NCBI RefSeq assembly: GCF_900109545.1
Contig: NZ_FOAP01000030.1
Location: 1-64,000, forward strand
Reading direction: 5' to 3'
Origin: Stigmatella aurantiaca
GTDB lineage: Bacteria; Myxococcota; Myxococcia; Myxococcales; Myxococcaceae
Length of the DNA: 64,000 nucleotides
Below, piece after piece: positions 22,349-29,216 of the stretch. The position numbers and the translations under genes are program-made. The number at the start of each line of letters is the position of its first letter. The first letter of the stretch is position 1. The notes under the pieces are model-generated. The model worked only from the letters and a program-made list of their open reading frames with translations, did no database searches and was not told the origin of the DNA.

Positions 22349-22882
22349 ATGCGTCCCCTCCCGCTCGCCAGCCTCCTGCTGCTCTCCCTGCCGGTGTTCG
22401 CCCAGGCCACGCCGCCTGCGCCCCCGGGGGTCCAGGCCCGCGAGGAGCCCGCCCCCGCCGCCCGGGGCGGCACGGTGAGCGAGGACACGGCCCTGCTGCG
22501 TGGGCTGCTCTGGGCCACCGAGCCCACGCCCGAGGAAGTGCGCGCCATGGCCATCGAGGACCTGGCGCTCCTGGCGGACCCCCGCGCCCTCAACCCGCTG
22601 GCGGCGCTGCTGTGGGACCCGAGCCCGCGGATTCAAGCCGCCGCCCTGCGCGCCGTGGCCCTCTTCCAGCACCCCCGCGCCGAGGAGATTCTCACCCAGG
22701 TGGTGCGCCACACCCAGCTGCCGGACGCCCTAAAGCTCCAGGCGCTGGACGGGCTGCTCTACCAACGCACGGCTTCCGCGCGCGCCACCGTGGGGGCCGT
22801 CTCGAAGGACCCTCGCCTCCCGGCCGCCCTTCAGTCCGCCGCCCTGAGTGTGCTGGCCCGCTGGGACGTCCCTCGGAAGTAA
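22349..22882 (+). CDS. Secreted HEAT-repeat protein
   Basis: 177 aa with a cleavable signal peptide (LASLLLLSLPVFAQA). A Pro/Ala linker leads to three or four HEAT-like helical pairs (about 60-177), for example EDLALLADPRALNPLAALLWD and RIQAAALRAVALFQHP. It is likely a periplasmic scaffold or protein-binding module. It is convergent with the sulfur carrier gene, 9 bases apart. Confidence 0.75.
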   Translation: MRPLPLASLLLLSLPVFAQATPPAPPGVQAREEPAPAARGGTVSEDTALLRGLLWATEPTPEEVRAMAIEDLALLADPRALNPLAALLWDPSPRIQAAALRAVALFQHPRAEEILTQVVRHTQLPDALKLQALDGLLYQRTASARATVGAVSKDPRLPAALQSAALSVLARWDVPRK

Positions 22883-22891
22883 CCCCTCGTC

Positions 22892-23164
22892 CTACCCTCC
22901 GGCGACGGCAGGAACGATCGTGATGCGATCTCCTTCCGTCACGGGGGTGGCCAGTTGTTGCAAGAAGCGAATGTCTTCGTCGTTGTGGAAGATGTTGATG
23001 TAGCGCCGCACCGCGCCCTGATCGTCCAATACCCGCGCACCGATGCCTGGGAAACGCTTCTCCAGGTTCGCCAGCACTTCGCCCACCGTGTTTCCCGCCG
23101 TGCTCGCCTCGCTCTGCTGCTGAGTCAGGCTGCGAAAAGGGGCCGGAATGCGCACCAGCGCCAT
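22892..23164 (-). CDS. CysO/MoaD-like sulfur carrier protein
   Basis: 90 aa beta-grasp protein ending in the diagnostic Gly-Gly (TIVPAVAGG). The central stretch (RRYINIFHNDEDIRF, LATPVTEGD) resembles CysO of Mycobacterium more than ThiS or canonical MoaD. Such carriers are adenylated by a ThiF/MoeB/MoeZ-type enzyme and converted to a C-terminal thiocarboxylate that donates sulfur. No activating enzyme gene is in the window. ATG 23164 lies 3 bases after the HAD gene stop, with AAGGAGGAG inside the end of that gene. It is third in a tight minus-strand operon with a ThiG-like synthase, which implies it supplies that enzyme. Confidence 0.85.
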   Translation of the reverse strand: MALVRIPAPFRSLTQQQSEASTAGNTVGEVLANLEKRFPGIGARVLDDQGAVRRYINIFHNDEDIRFLQQLATPVTEGDRITIVPAVAGG

Positions 23165-23167
23165 GGA

Positions 23168-23893
23168 TCACTCCTCCTTGCCAATCGTGACCAGCACATT
23201 TCCCTGAAACACCAACTCCAGGCCTCCCGGCTTCGCCCTGCACTCGACGTCCGCGAGATCCTGGACGACATACCGCGCCCCGCGCTCCCGCAAATCCGCG
23301 CCATCCCCCGGGGTGAGGCCCAGGCAAACCGCCCCCGCAGCGGCCCCCGCAGCGATGCCGCTCGGCGCATCCTCCACCACCAGGCACCGGTTCGCGGGCA
23401 CTCCCAACCGCTTCGCCCCCAGCAGGTAGCAGTCCGGTGCGGGCTTGCCATTCTGGATGTCTTCCCAGGTGACGCAGACCCGGAAAGATGAAGCCAGGCC
23501 CAAGGCCGCCAGCACGCGCTGGACACGTGTCTTGGAGCCACTGGTCACCAGCGCCAGTGGCACCCCTGCGGCAGCAAGACGCTCGGCCAGCCTCTGGGTC
23601 CCAGCCATCCCGCGGAAGTCCAACCGGGGCTCCGCCTGCCGGACCTGGTTCAGGAGATGCTCCCGCGAGCCTCCCTCCAGCTCCGCGAACAGCGCCGACA
23701 CGGTGTGCTCGGGTGAGCGCCCCAGAACGTAGCGGCGGATGTCCTCCTCGGTCAGGGTCTTGCCGTGACCGCGCGCGATCTCCTCCCACAGTGCCGCGAC
23801 GGCCTGATGGGTATCGATCAGGACTCCATCCATGTCGAACATCACGGCGGCTAGGATTTCTGACGGCATTGGGCCCTTCCCCAAGGAATCCAT
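23168..23893 (-). CDS. HAD-superfamily sugar-phosphatase/phosphoglucomutase-like enzyme
   Basis: About 241 aa. The HAD motifs are complete: nucleophile DMDGVLID, motif II Ser in VTSGSK, Lys in NGKPAPD, and motif IV VVEDAPSGI. The helical cap sits between motif I and motif II, as in beta-phosphoglucomutase and sugar phosphatases. The likely substrate is a small phosphorylated metabolite. Start ATG 23893 overlaps the stop of the ThiG-like gene as TGATG; an internal ATG at 23869 is the alternative. Its place between a ThiG-like enzyme and a sulfur carrier suggests dephosphorylation of a thio-intermediate. Confidence 0.8.
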   Translation of the reverse strand: MDSLGKGPMPSEILAAVMFDMDGVLIDTHQAVAALWEEIARGHGKTLTEEDIRRYVLGRSPEHTVSALFAELEGGSREHLLNQVRQAEPRLDFRGMAGTQRLAERLAAAGVPLALVTSGSKTRVQRVLAALGLASSFRVCVTWEDIQNGKPAPDCYLLGAKRLGVPANRCLVVEDAPSGIAAGAAAGAVCLGLTPGDGADLRERGARYVVQDLADVECRAKPGGLELVFQGNVLVTIGKEE

Positions 23894-24660
23894 CAACCCG
23901 CGGCGGCCACCGGGGTGTCCCGGCGCTGGGCTGCCCCCAGCCTCCCCGCGATCACCGCGTGCTTCATCGCCTCGGCCATGCGGACGGGATCGGGCGCCTG
24001 CGCAACGGCCGTGTTGACCAGCACGGCATCGGCCCCCATCTCCATGGCCTGCGCGACCTGGGCAGGAGAACCGAGCCCTCCTTCGATAATCACAGGCACC
24101 GAGACCGCGTCGAGCACCTGCTGGAGCGACTTCGGATCGACGATTCCCCGTCCGCTGGCGACGGGCGCGGCCATGATCCGGAGCGCGCAACACCCCATCC
24201 GCTCGAGCGCCAGCGCGTCTTTGAGGTCGGGAAGGATGAAGGGCATGACCGCACAGCCCTCGTCCAGCAACTGCTTGGCGGCCTCCAGCGTCTGGCCATT
24301 GTGCGGCAGGTTGTCCGAGGGCCGGACATCGAGCTTGAACACCTCGATCCCGTGAGCGCGGCGAAGGGACCTCACCGTCCGGAGCGCGTCCTCCTTGGAG
24401 TGAGCGAACGACGTCGTGCCGATCCAGTTGAACCGATCCAGCGGCACGAACTGGTCAATATCCGAGAGCAGCAGGCTCGTCCGGGTCTGCTCCAGGTCCA
24501 GGGTCGTGATGAACACGTCACAGCCGCTGGCCGTGAGCACCTTCGCCACCAGCTCGGCCGACACGTACTGTTCGATCCCCAGGATCAGCCGAGAGTGGAA
24601 CTTCATCGGACCGGCCACGAGCCATGGCTCTGAACCTGACTGCTCACCGTCACGAAGCAT
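23893..24660 (-). CDS. Divergent ThiG-like thiazole/thiosugar synthase
   Basis: About 255 aa TIM barrel of the ThiG family. Family landmarks are SRLILGIEQY (23-32), the Schiff-base lysine candidate Lys109 in FKLDV (ThiG has KLEV/KLEI), IEGGLGSPAQVAQAMEMGADAVLVNTA near 192-218, and VRMAEAMKHAV. The phosphate-site loop differs: canonical ThiG reads PLGAPIGSNxG, here IMAAPVASGRG (162-172). The paralogous BexX uses this chemistry on a sugar phosphate. Start ATG 24660 has AAAGG upstream; longer (24699) and shorter (24606) starts exist. First gene of a three-gene operon; no other thiamine genes are nearby. Confidence 0.75.
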   Translation of the reverse strand: MLRDGEQSGSEPWLVAGPMKFHSRLILGIEQYVSAELVAKVLTASGCDVFITTLDLEQTRTSLLLSDIDQFVPLDRFNWIGTTSFAHSKEDALRTVRSLRRAHGIEVFKLDVRPSDNLPHNGQTLEAAKQLLDEGCAVMPFILPDLKDALALERMGCCALRIMAAPVASGRGIVDPKSLQQVLDAVSVPVIIEGGLGSPAQVAQAMEMGADAVLVNTAVAQAPDPVRMAEAMKHAVIAGRLGAAQRRDTPVAAAG

Positions 24661-24737
24661 TGCTGCACCTTTCAGAGAAGAGGTGATGGGGGCGATCACC
24701 TCTGGAGAGGGGGGTGTTCCGCCCCTCTCCCAGAGGC
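24661..24737 (-). promoter_or_regulatory. Structured 5' leader with competing hairpins
   Basis: Downstream of the predicted promoter the leader can form a large hairpin (24699-24736, about 14 pairs with one bulge). Alternatively it forms a 9-base-pair hairpin, AGAGGTGAT pairing with ATCACCTCT, at about 24679-24703. The two share bases of the same AGAGG arm, so they exclude one another, and the ribosome site follows a few bases later. This is the geometry of a leader that switches translation or elongation. It does not contain the TPP riboswitch core. No U tract is present. Confidence 0.45.
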
Positions 24738-24743
24738 CGGGAG

Positions 24744-24772
24744 ATTACACGTCTTTCGCCCCTATCGGGCAA
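24744..24772 (-). promoter_or_regulatory. Sigma70-type promoter for the ThiG-like operon
   Basis: Read on the minus strand: -35 TTGCCC (4 of 6 consensus), a 17-base spacer, and -10 TGTAAT (5 of 6). Transcription would start near 24737, immediately before the large hairpin, leaving a leader of about 76 bases. This separates the operon from the GST gene, which ends at 24819. Confidence 0.5.
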
Positions 24773-24818
24773 TCCAGCTTAGAGGACCCGTCGGCAGGAA
24801 GCCAAGTCCCAAGACCCG

Positions 24819-25448
24819 TCAGGCCTTGTCCGCGGGCAGACGGCCGTCCGCGATGGAGCACTTCTTGAAGGCAGGACGCTCGGTGATGCGCGCCACGTAG
24901 TCCGTGAAGATCGGCTCCTGGAGGCCCGGCGCCTTGAACGAGAGGGCCCAGGCGATCTGAGCGCCCACGTAGACATCCGCCGCGCTGAACTGCTCGCCGA
25001 GGATGTACGGCCCCGGGGTGAGCATCTTCTTGAACGCGCCGAGCGTGTCCTCGTAGCTGCCATAGCCGACGGTGCCCTTGTTGTCGGCCAGCGGGCGCTT
25101 GAGCATCACGTCGAGCAGAGCAGGCTCGAAGCAGCCCGCGCCGAAGAACAGCCAGCGCAGGTAGGTGCCGCGACGCACGTCGCCCGGCGGCGGCGCGAGC
25201 CCCGCCTGCGGGAAGGCATCGGCCAGGTAGGTGATGATGGCCGCCGTCTCGGTGATGACGGTGCCGTCATGGACGAGCGTCGGCAGCTTGCCCATCGGGT
25301 TGAGGGCGAGGAACTCCGGAGACTTCTGCTCGCCTTTCTGCAGGTCGATGCGCACGACCCGGAAGGGCACTCCCACCTCGTGCAGCATCCAGTGGACCAT
25401 CTGCGCCCGCGACTGGGGGTTGTGATAGAAAACGAGTTCTCCGCTCAT
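24819..25448 (-). CDS. gst: Glutathione S-transferase family protein
   Basis: 209 aa. The N-terminal thioredoxin-like domain has the G-site pattern FYHNPQSRAQMVHW, NPMGKLPTLVHDG and ITETAAIITYLAD (the ES/ET glutathione contact). The C-terminal half is the all-helical domain (FSAADVYVGAQIAWAL). It conjugates or reduces small electrophiles with glutathione. ATG 25448 has AAGGAG just upstream; the longer frame to 25634 runs into the neighbouring gene. It reads toward the ThiG-like operon but is separated from it by a predicted promoter, so joint function is not implied. Confidence 0.9.
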   Translation of the reverse strand: MSGELVFYHNPQSRAQMVHWMLHEVGVPFRVVRIDLQKGEQKSPEFLALNPMGKLPTLVHDGTVITETAAIITYLADAFPQAGLAPPPGDVRRGTYLRWLFFGAGCFEPALLDVMLKRPLADNKGTVGYGSYEDTLGAFKKMLTPGPYILGEQFSAADVYVGAQIAWALSFKAPGLQEPIFTDYVARITERPAFKKCSIADGRLPADKA

Positions 25449-25557
25449 GGGTTGCTCCTTGCTGGGAAGGCGCGGAGCATGCCCGGTTTCGCGCCGGGCG
25501 GAGAACAATCCTTCACGGCGTGCGGCTCCTGGACCGAAGCCGCACGCCCAGCACGCC

Positions 25558-27552
25558 TCACTGCACGACGGTGACGGCTCCCGTGGAGGTGTTGTGCACG
25601 AGCGCGCCGCGCTCGAAGTCCACACGCCGGCCACCGCTCACCGCGTAGGCCTCCGACTTCGGGAACCCCAGCGTCTGCGCGACCCCGGCCTCCAGGAACT
25701 TCTGGAGAATGGCGCCCTCCAGCCACCGGGCCCCCGTCGCGGACGACCAGTAGATGTGGCCGCCCTGGAAGCGGCCGACCTTGCCGGGGGCGAAGGACGT
25801 GTTCTCCTCATCCGACACCGGGTAGCCCAGCGCGCTTCGCTCCCAGCCGAGCGCCTCCCAGCGGGCCCGGATCTGGCCATGCACCTCGTGCGCGCCCGTC
25901 GCGGGCGTCCAGTAGATGCTGCCCAGCACAGCGCCCTTCTTGAAGTGGTTGTAACGGCCCACCCCATCCGGCGTCTTCATCTCCCCCGTGGTGGGGTAGC
26001 CCAGCTCGCTGCGCTCCCAGTCCAGGGCCTCCCACTTCTGGCGGATGAAGCCGTGGACCTCCCAGGCGCCCGTCTCGGGCGTCCAGTAGATGCTGCCCTT
26101 CTGGAAGTGGTTGTAGCGGCCCACCCCATCCGGCGTCTTCATCTCGTCGGTGATGGGGTAGCCCAGCGGGCCTTGCTCCCAGTTCACCGCCGCCCACCGG
26201 TCCCGGATGAGCCCGTGCACCACGTGCGCTCCGGTCGCAGGCGTCCAGTAGATGCTCCCACGCTCGAAGGCGTTGTAGCGCCCCACCCCGTCCGGCGTGG
26301 TGTTCTCTCCCGTCTGGCACTTGCCCAGCAGCACCGCGCCATTCACCGCGTCGTACTTCGCCTTGATGTCCCCCTGCAGCACGCAGCCGGTGCCACAGGC
26401 GGCGTTGGCGCGGTTGAGGTAGTCCGTCCAGGGCCAGTTCGCGCCGGGATCCGTGCGGTTGTAAGGCTGCAGCTGGCCGTGCCCCACCACGTGGTAGCGG
26501 TCCCGGGGAACGCCGTGGTCCCGCGTGATGTCGCACAGCAGCCGGGCCGAGGCGTCGAGCTGTCCCGCGGGCCACACGGTCTGCGCGGCATACCCGCCGT
26601 GCTCGATGCCGATGGTGAAGTCATTGGAACTCTTACCGTTCAGCCCGCACTCCACGCCGCCATTGTTCTTGCAGTCAAAGGTGGCCCCGATGTGCCAGCC
26701 GCGGCTGCCGTCCCGCACGAGCTGGCTGATCTCCTGGCCGTCCTCCCGCACCACATAGTGCGCGCTCACCCCCGAGGTGGAGTTGGTCAACCAGCTCCAG
26801 CACCCCGCATAGCTGCTCTCGCAGGTGTGGATGATCACCATGCGCACCCCCATGGGCCGGGCGTTGTAGTTGGGTGAGGGCCGCCACACCGCCGGGGCGT
26901 AGTCAGGGCCCGCGAGCAGTTGGGGAGGCGGTGCCTGCCCCTCCTCCGGTGCCAGACCGCTCGCGGCCCCTTCCTCCGAGAGCGTTCCCAGCCCCAGGCG
27001 AAGCACCCGGAACACCTCATCCTGGGAGAAGCTGCGCCGCCCCTGCGCGTCCGGGATGCCAGAGATGGCTTCCACGGCCGGTGCCCAGTCCGCCGCCCGG
27101 TTCCGGCCCAGCCCCAGCCGCATCGAGTGGTGGGACAGCAGCGCCGCCGCCGCGCGGACGTTGGAGCGGGCATCGGTCCGGGCCTCTGCTGCGGTGACCC
27201 CGGCACGTTTCGCACCTTCCTTCAGGAGGTCCTCCGTGAGCGCCATCATCCCGAAGACGGCCGGGCGCCCCTCGAACTCCTCGGCGCCCTCCACCATCTG
27301 GTAGCGCGTCTGGACGAAGGCGATGGCCTTGAGCAGCGCGGGCGGCACCCCGAACTCCTGCCCCGCATCCCGGAAGAGCGCATCGGAAGCGCTGTCCTCG
27401 CGCGCCAACACCTCCGCCCGTGCCGGGTCCATCTCCTGCACGCCGCGCTCCACGGCGGAGACCGGGAGCTCTTGAGGCGTTTCATTCGAGCCACATGCCT
27501 GCGCCAAAGCCAGCGTGGCGGTGAGCACGGCCATGCCATGTCTGTTTTTCAT
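25558..27552 (-). CDS. LGFP-repeat N-acetylmuramoyl-L-alanine amidase lipoprotein
   Basis: About 664 aa. Lipobox LALAQAC (Cys20). Residues about 60-160 are a helical lysozyme/SLT-like region (FGVPPALLKAIAFVQTRYQM). An Amidase_2 domain lies at about 230-390, with Zn-ligand candidates in IIHTCES and VVGHGQLQP and the acidic TDPG segment. The C-terminus has four or more LGFP units (GRYNHFQKGSIYW, ELGYPTTGE, TLGFPKSE). Amidases cut the muramyl-alanine bond of peptidoglycan. LGFP repeats are best known from mycolata cell-wall proteins, so cell-wall targeting is likely. ATG 27552 has GGAGG upstream. It is divergent from a second LGFP enzyme gene. Confidence 0.88.
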   Translation of the reverse strand: MKNRHGMAVLTATLALAQACGSNETPQELPVSAVERGVQEMDPARAEVLAREDSASDALFRDAGQEFGVPPALLKAIAFVQTRYQMVEGAEEFEGRPAVFGMMALTEDLLKEGAKRAGVTAAEARTDARSNVRAAAALLSHHSMRLGLGRNRAADWAPAVEAISGIPDAQGRRSFSQDEVFRVLRLGLGTLSEEGAASGLAPEEGQAPPPQLLAGPDYAPAVWRPSPNYNARPMGVRMVIIHTCESSYAGCWSWLTNSTSGVSAHYVVREDGQEISQLVRDGSRGWHIGATFDCKNNGGVECGLNGKSSNDFTIGIEHGGYAAQTVWPAGQLDASARLLCDITRDHGVPRDRYHVVGHGQLQPYNRTDPGANWPWTDYLNRANAACGTGCVLQGDIKAKYDAVNGAVLLGKCQTGENTTPDGVGRYNAFERGSIYWTPATGAHVVHGLIRDRWAAVNWEQGPLGYPITDEMKTPDGVGRYNHFQKGSIYWTPETGAWEVHGFIRQKWEALDWERSELGYPTTGEMKTPDGVGRYNHFKKGAVLGSIYWTPATGAHEVHGQIRARWEALGWERSALGYPVSDEENTSFAPGKVGRFQGGHIYWSSATGARWLEGAILQKFLEAGVAQTLGFPKSEAYAVSGGRRVDFERGALVHNTSTGAVTVVQ
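25806..26307 (-). repeat. LGFP repeat array in the amidase gene
   Basis: Tandem units of about 54-57 codons, each reading TPDGVGRYN..FxKG..SIYWTP.TGA..VHG followed by LGYP. The DNA is very similar, in inverted orientation, to the array at 28608-29118 in the divergent gene. Confidence 0.75.
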
Positions 27553-27642
27553 GGGGGATCCTCCTGACATCGTTTTTGAGGGAGAGGCCACATTCCCTAC
27601 CGAATCCCGCCGGACAAGTGAAGCGGGTGATATCCGCCCTCC

Positions 27643-27664
27643 CTGTCTTCCGTGAGACACGGAA
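27643..27664. promoter_or_regulatory. Palindromic operator candidate, MrpC-like
   Basis: Within the 239-base divergent region two overlapping dyads occur. CTGTC, eight bases, then GACAC (27643-27660) matches the reported MrpC consensus GTGTC-N8-GACAC at 9 of 10 positions. TTCCGTG-AGA-CACGGAA (27648-27664) is a perfect 7-base inverted repeat. MrpC is a CRP/Fnr-family developmental regulator of Myxococcus. The site could co-regulate both LGFP enzyme genes. No convincing -35/-10 pair was found for either direction. Confidence 0.4.
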
Positions 27665-27791
27665 TCTCTGAGCCACTGCGTCAAAATCCGGATACCGCTT
27701 TCCCGGCGCAACTCCGTGCAGGATTTGCCGATAACGGAAGTTCCGCCTCTTCCATGCCCCCTTCCGCCGCCACGAATTGGACCCGCTGATC

Positions 27792-29216
27792 ATGGACTCG
27801 AGATTGACGTTCAGAAGCCTTGTCTGGGTGTTGTCCGCGGTACTGCTGACCACATCCTGCGGCCCCGGGGATTTCCCGGAGGATCCTCGCAGCGAGGAGC
27901 TGATCGCCCTGGACTCCGCCCTGGGGTCCGTGGACATGCACAACCTCATGTCCGACACGGACATCGCCGGGTACCAGACGGTGACGCCGGATCAGGTCCA
28001 GAGCTTCCTGGCGTCCAAGGGTTCCTTCCTGGCGGGCTACCGCGACCCGGCGTTTGGCAACAAGACGGCCGCCGCCCTGATCGTGGAGCGAGCCACCGCC
28101 TACCGCATCAACCCGGTGTACATCCTGGCCCGCATCGAGACGGAGTCGGGGCTCATCCGCAGCGGCACGTCGCGCAACCTCTCCAAGGCCACCGGCTGTG
28201 GCTGCCCGGATGGAAGCGGCTGCGACGCGGCCTACACGGGCTTCGGCAAGCAGGTGGAGTGCTCGGCGAAGACGTTCCGCAACTACCTGCGTGACCTGGA
28301 GGCAGGCCACACCACCGTCTCCGGTTGGAAGGCGGGCGTGGCCAAGAACACGCTGGACCCGTGCACGGTGCGGCCCGCCAACAACGCCACCGCCGCCCTC
28401 TACACCTATACCCCCTGGGTGGGCGCCTACGCCGCCCAGTGCGGCACCTCGGCCTGGGGAGGCTCCTCGCTGGTGGCCCTGCTCTACCGGGAGTTCCGCG
28501 ACAGCCGGAGCTGGGGAGGCGCCTGCGGGGTCGGTGGCGCCATCCTCACGCGCTACAACCAACTCGGCGGGGCCGGGGGCGTGCTCGGCGCGTGCACGAC
28601 GAGCGAGCTGACCACTCCCGACGGGGTGGGCCGCTACAACCACTTCCAGAAGGGCAGCATCTACTGGACGCCCGAGACGGGCGCCTGGGAAGTCCACGGC
28701 CTCATTCGCGCTCGCTGGGAGTCGCTGGGCTGGGAAACCGGCGTGCTGGGCTACCCCACCACGGGGGAGCTGAAGACGCCAGATGGGGTGGGCCGCTTCA
28801 ACCACTTCAAGAAGGGCGCCATGCTGGGCAGCATCTACTGGACGCCTGAGACGGGCGCTTGGGAAGTCCACGGCCTCATCCACGAGAAGTGGGCGGCGCT
28901 GGACTGGGAGCGCGGCGTGCTGGGCTACCCCATCTCCGGAGAGACGGCGACTCCTGATGGCGTGGGCCGCTTCAACCACTTCAAGAAGGGCACCGTGCTG
29001 GGCAGCATCTACTGGACGCCCACGACGGGCGCCTGGGAGGTCCACGGACGCATCCGCGAGAAGTGGGCGGAGCTGGGCTGGGAGCGCAGCACGCTGGGCT
29101 ACCCCATCTCGGACGAGTACGCCGTGAGCACCGGCCGCGAGAGCGAGTTCCAGAAGGGCTTCCTCACCTTCAATGCCGCCACCGGCACCGTCTCCGTCCG
29201 GATGAAACAGCCATGA
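27792..29216 (+). CDS. LGFP-repeat lysozyme-fold lipoprotein
   Basis: About 474 aa. Lipobox LLTTSC (Cys23). Residues about 50-235 form a lysozyme-like domain. It has DQVQSFLASKGSFLA, a catalytic-Glu candidate in YILARIETESGLI (116 or 118), GCGCPDGSGCD, GFGKQV and PANNATAALYTYTPW, all typical of secreted muramidase/transglycosylase-like proteins. Three full LGFP units and a partial one follow (about 265-465). It likely cuts glycan strands of wall peptidoglycan outside the cell. ATG 27792 is preferred to a TTG at 27777. Its stop overlaps the next start as ATGA, so the DUF4185 protein is translationally coupled to it. Confidence 0.85.
   Translation: MDSRLTFRSLVWVLSAVLLTTSCGPGDFPEDPRSEELIALDSALGSVDMHNLMSDTDIAGYQTVTPDQVQSFLASKGSFLAGYRDPAFGNKTAAALIVERATAYRINPVYILARIETESGLIRSGTSRNLSKATGCGCPDGSGCDAAYTGFGKQVECSAKTFRNYLRDLEAGHTTVSGWKAGVAKNTLDPCTVRPANNATAALYTYTPWVGAYAAQCGTSAWGGSSLVALLYREFRDSRSWGGACGVGGAILTRYNQLGGAGGVLGACTTSELTTPDGVGRYNHFQKGSIYWTPETGAWEVHGLIRARWESLGWETGVLGYPTTGELKTPDGVGRFNHFKKGAMLGSIYWTPETGAWEVHGLIHEKWAALDWERGVLGYPISGETATPDGVGRFNHFKKGTVLGSIYWTPTTGAWEVHGRIREKWAELGWERSTLGYPISDEYAVSTGRESEFQKGFLTFNAATGTVSVRMKQP
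28608..29118 (+). repeat. LGFP repeat array in the lysozyme-fold gene
   Basis: Three and a half tandem units of about 54-57 codons (GRYNHFQKGSIYW, GRFNHFKKGAMLGSIYW, GRFNHFKKGTVLGSIYW, each followed by LGYP). Unit-to-unit nucleotide similarity is high, as is similarity in reverse orientation to 25806-26307. Confidence 0.75.

Follow-up and report, generated by a model that had tools for sequence, protein, structure and literature searches.

A gene for a ThiG-like protein in Stigmatella aurantiaca shares an operon with genes for a HAD-family phosphatase and a small sulfur carrier, and the question is whether this set serves thiamin synthesis, cysteine synthesis or another kind of sulfur insertion. 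Our analysis of the window, which is the whole stretch of 64,000 nucleotides containing the operon, and of related genomes suggests that the operon is probably a self-contained 2-thiosugar cassette, which would yield a free 2-thiosugar by way of its phosphate.

Operon layout and type of the synthase

The three genes lie on the minus strand between positions 24660 and 22892, in the order ThiG-like synthase, HAD and carrier. The synthase (23893..24660, minus strand, 255 aa; PF05690, E 5.7e-57) is followed by the phosphatase, of HAD subfamily IA and beta-PGM type (23168..23893, minus strand, 241 aa; PF13419, E 1.5e-28), and by a dedicated CysO/SAMP1-like sulfur carrier with a C-terminal Gly-Gly (22892..23164, minus strand, 90 aa; PF02597, NF041918). 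The ThiG-like stop and the HAD start overlap in TGATG and the HAD stop is separated from the carrier start by a 3-base gap, just as the preliminary description of this locus had it. Its readings of a KLDV Schiff-base motif (KLEV/KVEV in canonical ThiG), a changed phosphate loop (AAPVASGRGI versus canonical AAPIGSGxGI), a HAD phosphatase with all catalytic motifs, a CysO-like carrier (SAMP1/CysO type, ending in AVAGG) and surroundings free of thiamine genes were also borne out. The reading frames are unbroken in three species of the genus Stigmatella, i.e., in the S. aurantiaca genome itself (G000), G001 and G005, and the dN/dS values of the cassette genes across the three species are 0.08-0.26. 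Because the frames are intact, dN/dS is in this range and the gene set recurs in Actinomycetota, the cassette is not a product of chance. Sigma-70 promoters and terminators were sought by computation and none above chance was found. The window also holds two divergent secreted-protein genes (25558-29216) with related repeats that are LGFP-like by eye, and one of them (25558-27711) resembles a cell-wall amidase.

The phylogenetic analysis of 50 proteins placed the window's synthase in a 26-member BexX clade (support 100/100) apart from canonical ThiG, where it adjoins Streptomyces proteins (91/86) and is nested among Actinomycetota. Among PDB sequences BexX scored highest (275 bits), followed by ThiG (138 bits). 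The AlphaFold2 model (pLDDT 88, pTM 0.86) has its best fold match in 4n6e, the BexX/CysO complex (TM 0.92, 54% identity), and both 4n6e and 4n6f, which is BexX with G6P, rank ahead of any ThiG. The loop AAPVASGRGI is of the same kind as ASPVASGRGI of BexX. In nearly the whole BexX clade GIEQY, TTSFA, KLDVR, PFILPD, VASGRG and EGG stand for the ThiG forms, and KLDVR, VASGRG and EGG are common to the window's synthase and BexX. The Schiff-base lysine is predicted to be K109, in KLDV; K109, D111 and E193 correspond to the catalytic Lys96, Glu98 and Asp182 of Bacillus subtilis ThiG. By sequence and predicted structure, the protein belongs with BexX and is not a thiazole synthase. The position inside the BexX clade and outside canonical ThiG, together with the best fit of the model to BexX, supports the earlier idea of a BexX-like thiosugar-phosphate synthase with its own carrier and phosphatase, acting on a predicted substrate.

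BexX, a 2-thioglucose-6-phosphate synthase, belongs to the BE-7585A angucycline pathway of Amycolatopsis orientalis (PDB 4n6e, 4n6f). The Stigmatella synthase shares its clade, fold and active-site motifs, and the same reaction with a CysO-type carrier is predicted for it. BexX takes its carriers from primary metabolism (PMC6225789, PMC5321127) and sits in an antibiotic cluster, whereas the Stigmatella cassette stands without such a cluster, has a dedicated carrier and encodes a HAD phosphatase where BexX has a GT20 enzyme. As compared to canonical ThiG with ThiS, the cassette synthase has the same TIM barrel, Schiff-base lysine and thiocarboxylated carrier as sulfur source, but identity is about 35-44%, KLDV/EGG replace KLEV/DAG and the carrier is of the CysO type rather than ThiS. 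Parts of the synthase and HAD genes in the window (23893-24400, compared with L046 of G001) diverge more than the flanks, and G001 and G005 agree; gene conversion is a possible source of this excess divergence between the window and G001.

The phosphatase and the proposed pathway

The synthase has a single consumer enzyme encoded in its neighbourhood, a HAD in 14 of the 24 loci compared and an OtsA-like GT20 glycosyltransferase in the other 10; no locus has both and none has neither. The change of partner needs at least two switches on the tree, and the Fisher p of 5e-7 for the split overstates independence, since few independent events lie behind the 14:10 ratio. Our reading is that the product of the synthase is a phosphate, which the GT20 enzyme would glycosylate or the HAD would dephosphorylate.

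The catalytic motifs DxD, S/T, K and ED of the window's HAD are complete (FDMDG, VTSGS, GKPAPD and VEDA) and conserved in cassette HADs, which also have in common the cap motif PEHTV or a near form of it. The cassette HADs found are 46-53% identical to the window's HAD, with 186-218 bits, and the best non-cassette HADs of those same genomes reach 151 bits against it; the HAD tree is poorly resolved. The best fold match of the HAD model (pLDDT 91) is the alnumycin P phosphatase AlnB (PDB 4ex6, 4ex7), which dephosphorylates a sugar-phosphate intermediate of a natural product (PMC5321127). However, AlnB is 29% identical to the cassette HAD and acts on a C-riboside, and the PEHTV motif is the cassette HAD's own. 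By this likeness the HAD may act on a thiosugar phosphate, although HAD phosphatases are often promiscuous and a similar fold does not set the substrate.

In the proposed pathway, sulfur would first be loaded onto the C-terminal Gly-Gly of the cassette carrier by a rhodanese-E1 fusion whose gene lies at another place in the genome. The synthase would hold its substrate, a sugar phosphate that is most probably glucose 6-phosphate, as a Schiff base on K109 and isomerise it, and the carrier thiocarboxylate would then give its sulfur to form a 2-thiosugar phosphate, a BexX-like step suggested by clade, fold and motifs. The HAD would strip the phosphate and release the free 2-thiosugar, probably 2-thioglucose; in antibiotic clusters an OtsA-like GT20 glycosyltransferase stands where the cassette has the phosphatase. 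Neither a transporter nor a glycosyltransferase gene lies beside the Stigmatella copy.

Glucose 6-phosphate is favoured as the substrate on the basis of about 55% identity to BexX. The window's HAD-partnered clade is separate from the BexX/GT20 clade, and OtsA-type GT20 enzymes take G6P-like acceptors, a constraint that would be gone where a HAD replaces the GT20; the synthase might then use fructose, mannose, ribose, sedoheptulose or aminosugar phosphate, and the HAD would free another thiosugar. But the active-site motifs from GIEQY to EGG listed above are nearly identical in both clades, and such a different substrate seems unlikely.

Carrier, mobility and distribution of the cassette

The carrier belongs to a ubiquitin-like family (NF041918 over cut-off) and its best PDB match is 3dwg, the Mycobacterium CysO deposited as cfp10A. 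The S. aurantiaca genome also encodes its own CysO. In Stigmatella, identity between the cassette carrier and the resident CysO is 62-66%, against no more than 51% to any carrier from actinobacteria, whereas the synthase and HAD resemble those of actinobacterial cassettes. A single clade of all cassette carriers was rejected (p-AU 0.001), and so was co-transfer of carrier and synthase, for which the cassette carriers of Stigmatella and Streptomyces were united in one clade (p-AU 0.006); in both tests the groups were named after the tree had been seen. Since the carrier is closest to resident CysO and the joint clades are rejected, the synthase and phosphatase look transferred and the carrier recruited from the host. 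These trees point to Actinomycetota as the probable source of the synthase and phosphatase and to a resident myxobacterial CysO as the origin of the cassette carrier, and they indicate that dedicated carriers have been recruited independently more than once. Such a descent would also suit a mere second CysO for cysteine synthesis, in an operon of three genes without a common pathway; however, the adjacency of carrier and synthase arose independently several times (as the one-clade test indicates), the genome already has its own CysO and a Klebsiella plasmid cassette carries a carrier too, which leaves this explanation very little probability.

The rhodanese-E1 fusion, of which the S. aurantiaca genome encodes one, could be the loader of the cassette carrier. 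A ThiF-type E1 adjoins cysO in G002, G004 and G005; it was not found in G000, nor beside cysO in G001. The thiocarboxylate siderophore systems of Pseudomonas are not known to have a ThiG-like enzyme, and their acceptor chemistry is other than that of the thiosugar cassette. The pathways of these siderophores, thioquinolobactin and pyridine-2,6-dithiocarboxylic acid, use pathway-specific ThiS paralogues, and like the Stigmatella cassette they have a dedicated sulfur carrier, encoded within the specialised-metabolite cluster (PMC6225789).

A glutathione-transferase-like (GST-like) gene adjacent to the cassette (24819..25448, minus strand), which the preliminary description did not mention, accompanies the cassette in all three species and may be linked to it in function; the unit of cassette and GST-like gene extends over approximately 22886..25520. 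In G000 and G001 this unit comes after a conserved flank; the same flank runs on into other genes in G004 and G005, and in G005 the unit is found at another locus. Some 900 bp away from the moved unit, G005 carries a 94-bp fragment (L047:7693-7785) that repeats the 3' end of the neighbouring HEAT-repeat gene (22790-22883 in the window) and is likely a relic of the move. The cassette is absent from G002-G004 and G006. The idea of the GST as an obligate partner found no support, because G004 has the GST-like gene without the cassette.

Two peptide patterns, searched for in the genomes of 84,980 species, yielded 19 BexX-type loci, every one actinobacterial, and further loci are on Streptomyces plasmids. 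The cassette is present in 3 of 195 Myxococcota genomes, all of one genus; the gene set, for which conservation across myxobacteria had been considered, is kept in actinobacteria but not across myxobacteria. Streptomyces ISL-10, S. sioyaensis and S. kronopolitis have synthase, HAD and carrier as in Stigmatella, followed by an MFS transporter. In Micromonosporaceae (L100, L101, L104, L105) the order is synthase, carrier and HAD, then GlgA-like and MalQ-like genes, and the acceptor of MalQ there could be free 2-thioglucose. Dedicated carriers are found beside synthases in Streptomyces, Nonomuraea, Microtetraspora and Micromonosporaceae. An independent, diverged unit on a Klebsiella oxytoca plasmid (L088:10505-13415) encodes an EIIA-Man-like protein, a carrier that has no Pfam match and ends in GG, a ThiF-type E1, the synthase and a HAD. 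A DeoR-type regulator is also present with this unit, and in NZ_CP069944.1 the Klebsiella cassette synthase is apparently broken by an IS3 element. Klebsiella cassette DNA was sought in E. coli genomes and none was found.

Thiamin supply and meaning of the cassette

The S. aurantiaca genome is 99.99% complete, and the window's protein is its only ThiG-family protein. Neither canonical ThiG nor ThiO over the cut-off was found in G000, G001, G004 and G005. ThiC and the salvage kinase ThiM are present in G000, G001 and G005, and also in the sister genome G004, which has neither ThiG nor the cassette. Canonical ThiG and ThiO are present in G002, G003 and G006, where no ThiM was found over the cut-off. 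As the genome has ThiM but lacks the thiazole branch (ThiG, ThiO), and as G004 does without both ThiG and the cassette, the cassette does not replace ThiG; nor does its presence track the loss of thiazole synthesis, since G004 is without both and G002, G003 and G006 keep ThiG and ThiO. The TPP riboswitch of the S. aurantiaca genome lies at thiC and none was found at the cassette, which, unlike canonical ThiG/ThiS systems, also has no ThiO. Of the 15 BexX-type-bearing actinobacterial genomes checked, 14 have a canonical ThiG as well, at bit scores of 345-364 versus 180-194 for the BexX type. A thiamin role of the cassette was rejected on the basis of the tree, the gene complement (ThiC, ThiG, ThiO and ThiM) and the riboswitch position. 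The preliminary description had named a sole thiG grouping inside canonical ThiG as evidence against its proposal; the protein is indeed the sole ThiG-family member of its genome, but it groups with BexX and does not stand in for ThiG. That the enzyme is the genome's substitute thiazole synthase, using its own carrier, is hardly credible: its being the only ThiG-family protein beside a present ThiC is outweighed by the points given above, and the HAD partner would be left unexplained.

In the literature found, 2-thiosugar synthesis was described for one antibiotic pathway; this type of pathway is so far known from one group of antibiotic clusters but not as a unit by itself. No description of a BexX-HAD-carrier unit was found in the literature search, which is weak evidence as subscription journals were mostly outside the search. 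It is an evenly balanced proposition that bacteria make free 2-thiosugars as a class of metabolites that has gone unrecognised. A small mobile cassette of synthase, phosphatase and dedicated carrier would then produce them outside antibiotic clusters in Actinomycetota, Myxococcota and Enterobacterales, and the host CysO would have been domesticated repeatedly as its carrier. The evidence suggests a portable, stand-alone 2-thiosugar function with two alternative outlets, the phosphatase or the glycosyltransferase, and a tendency for borrowed carriers to turn into dedicated ones. With the three proteins from Stigmatella and their Streptomyces and Micromonospora relatives, the reaction and its product are open to direct testing.
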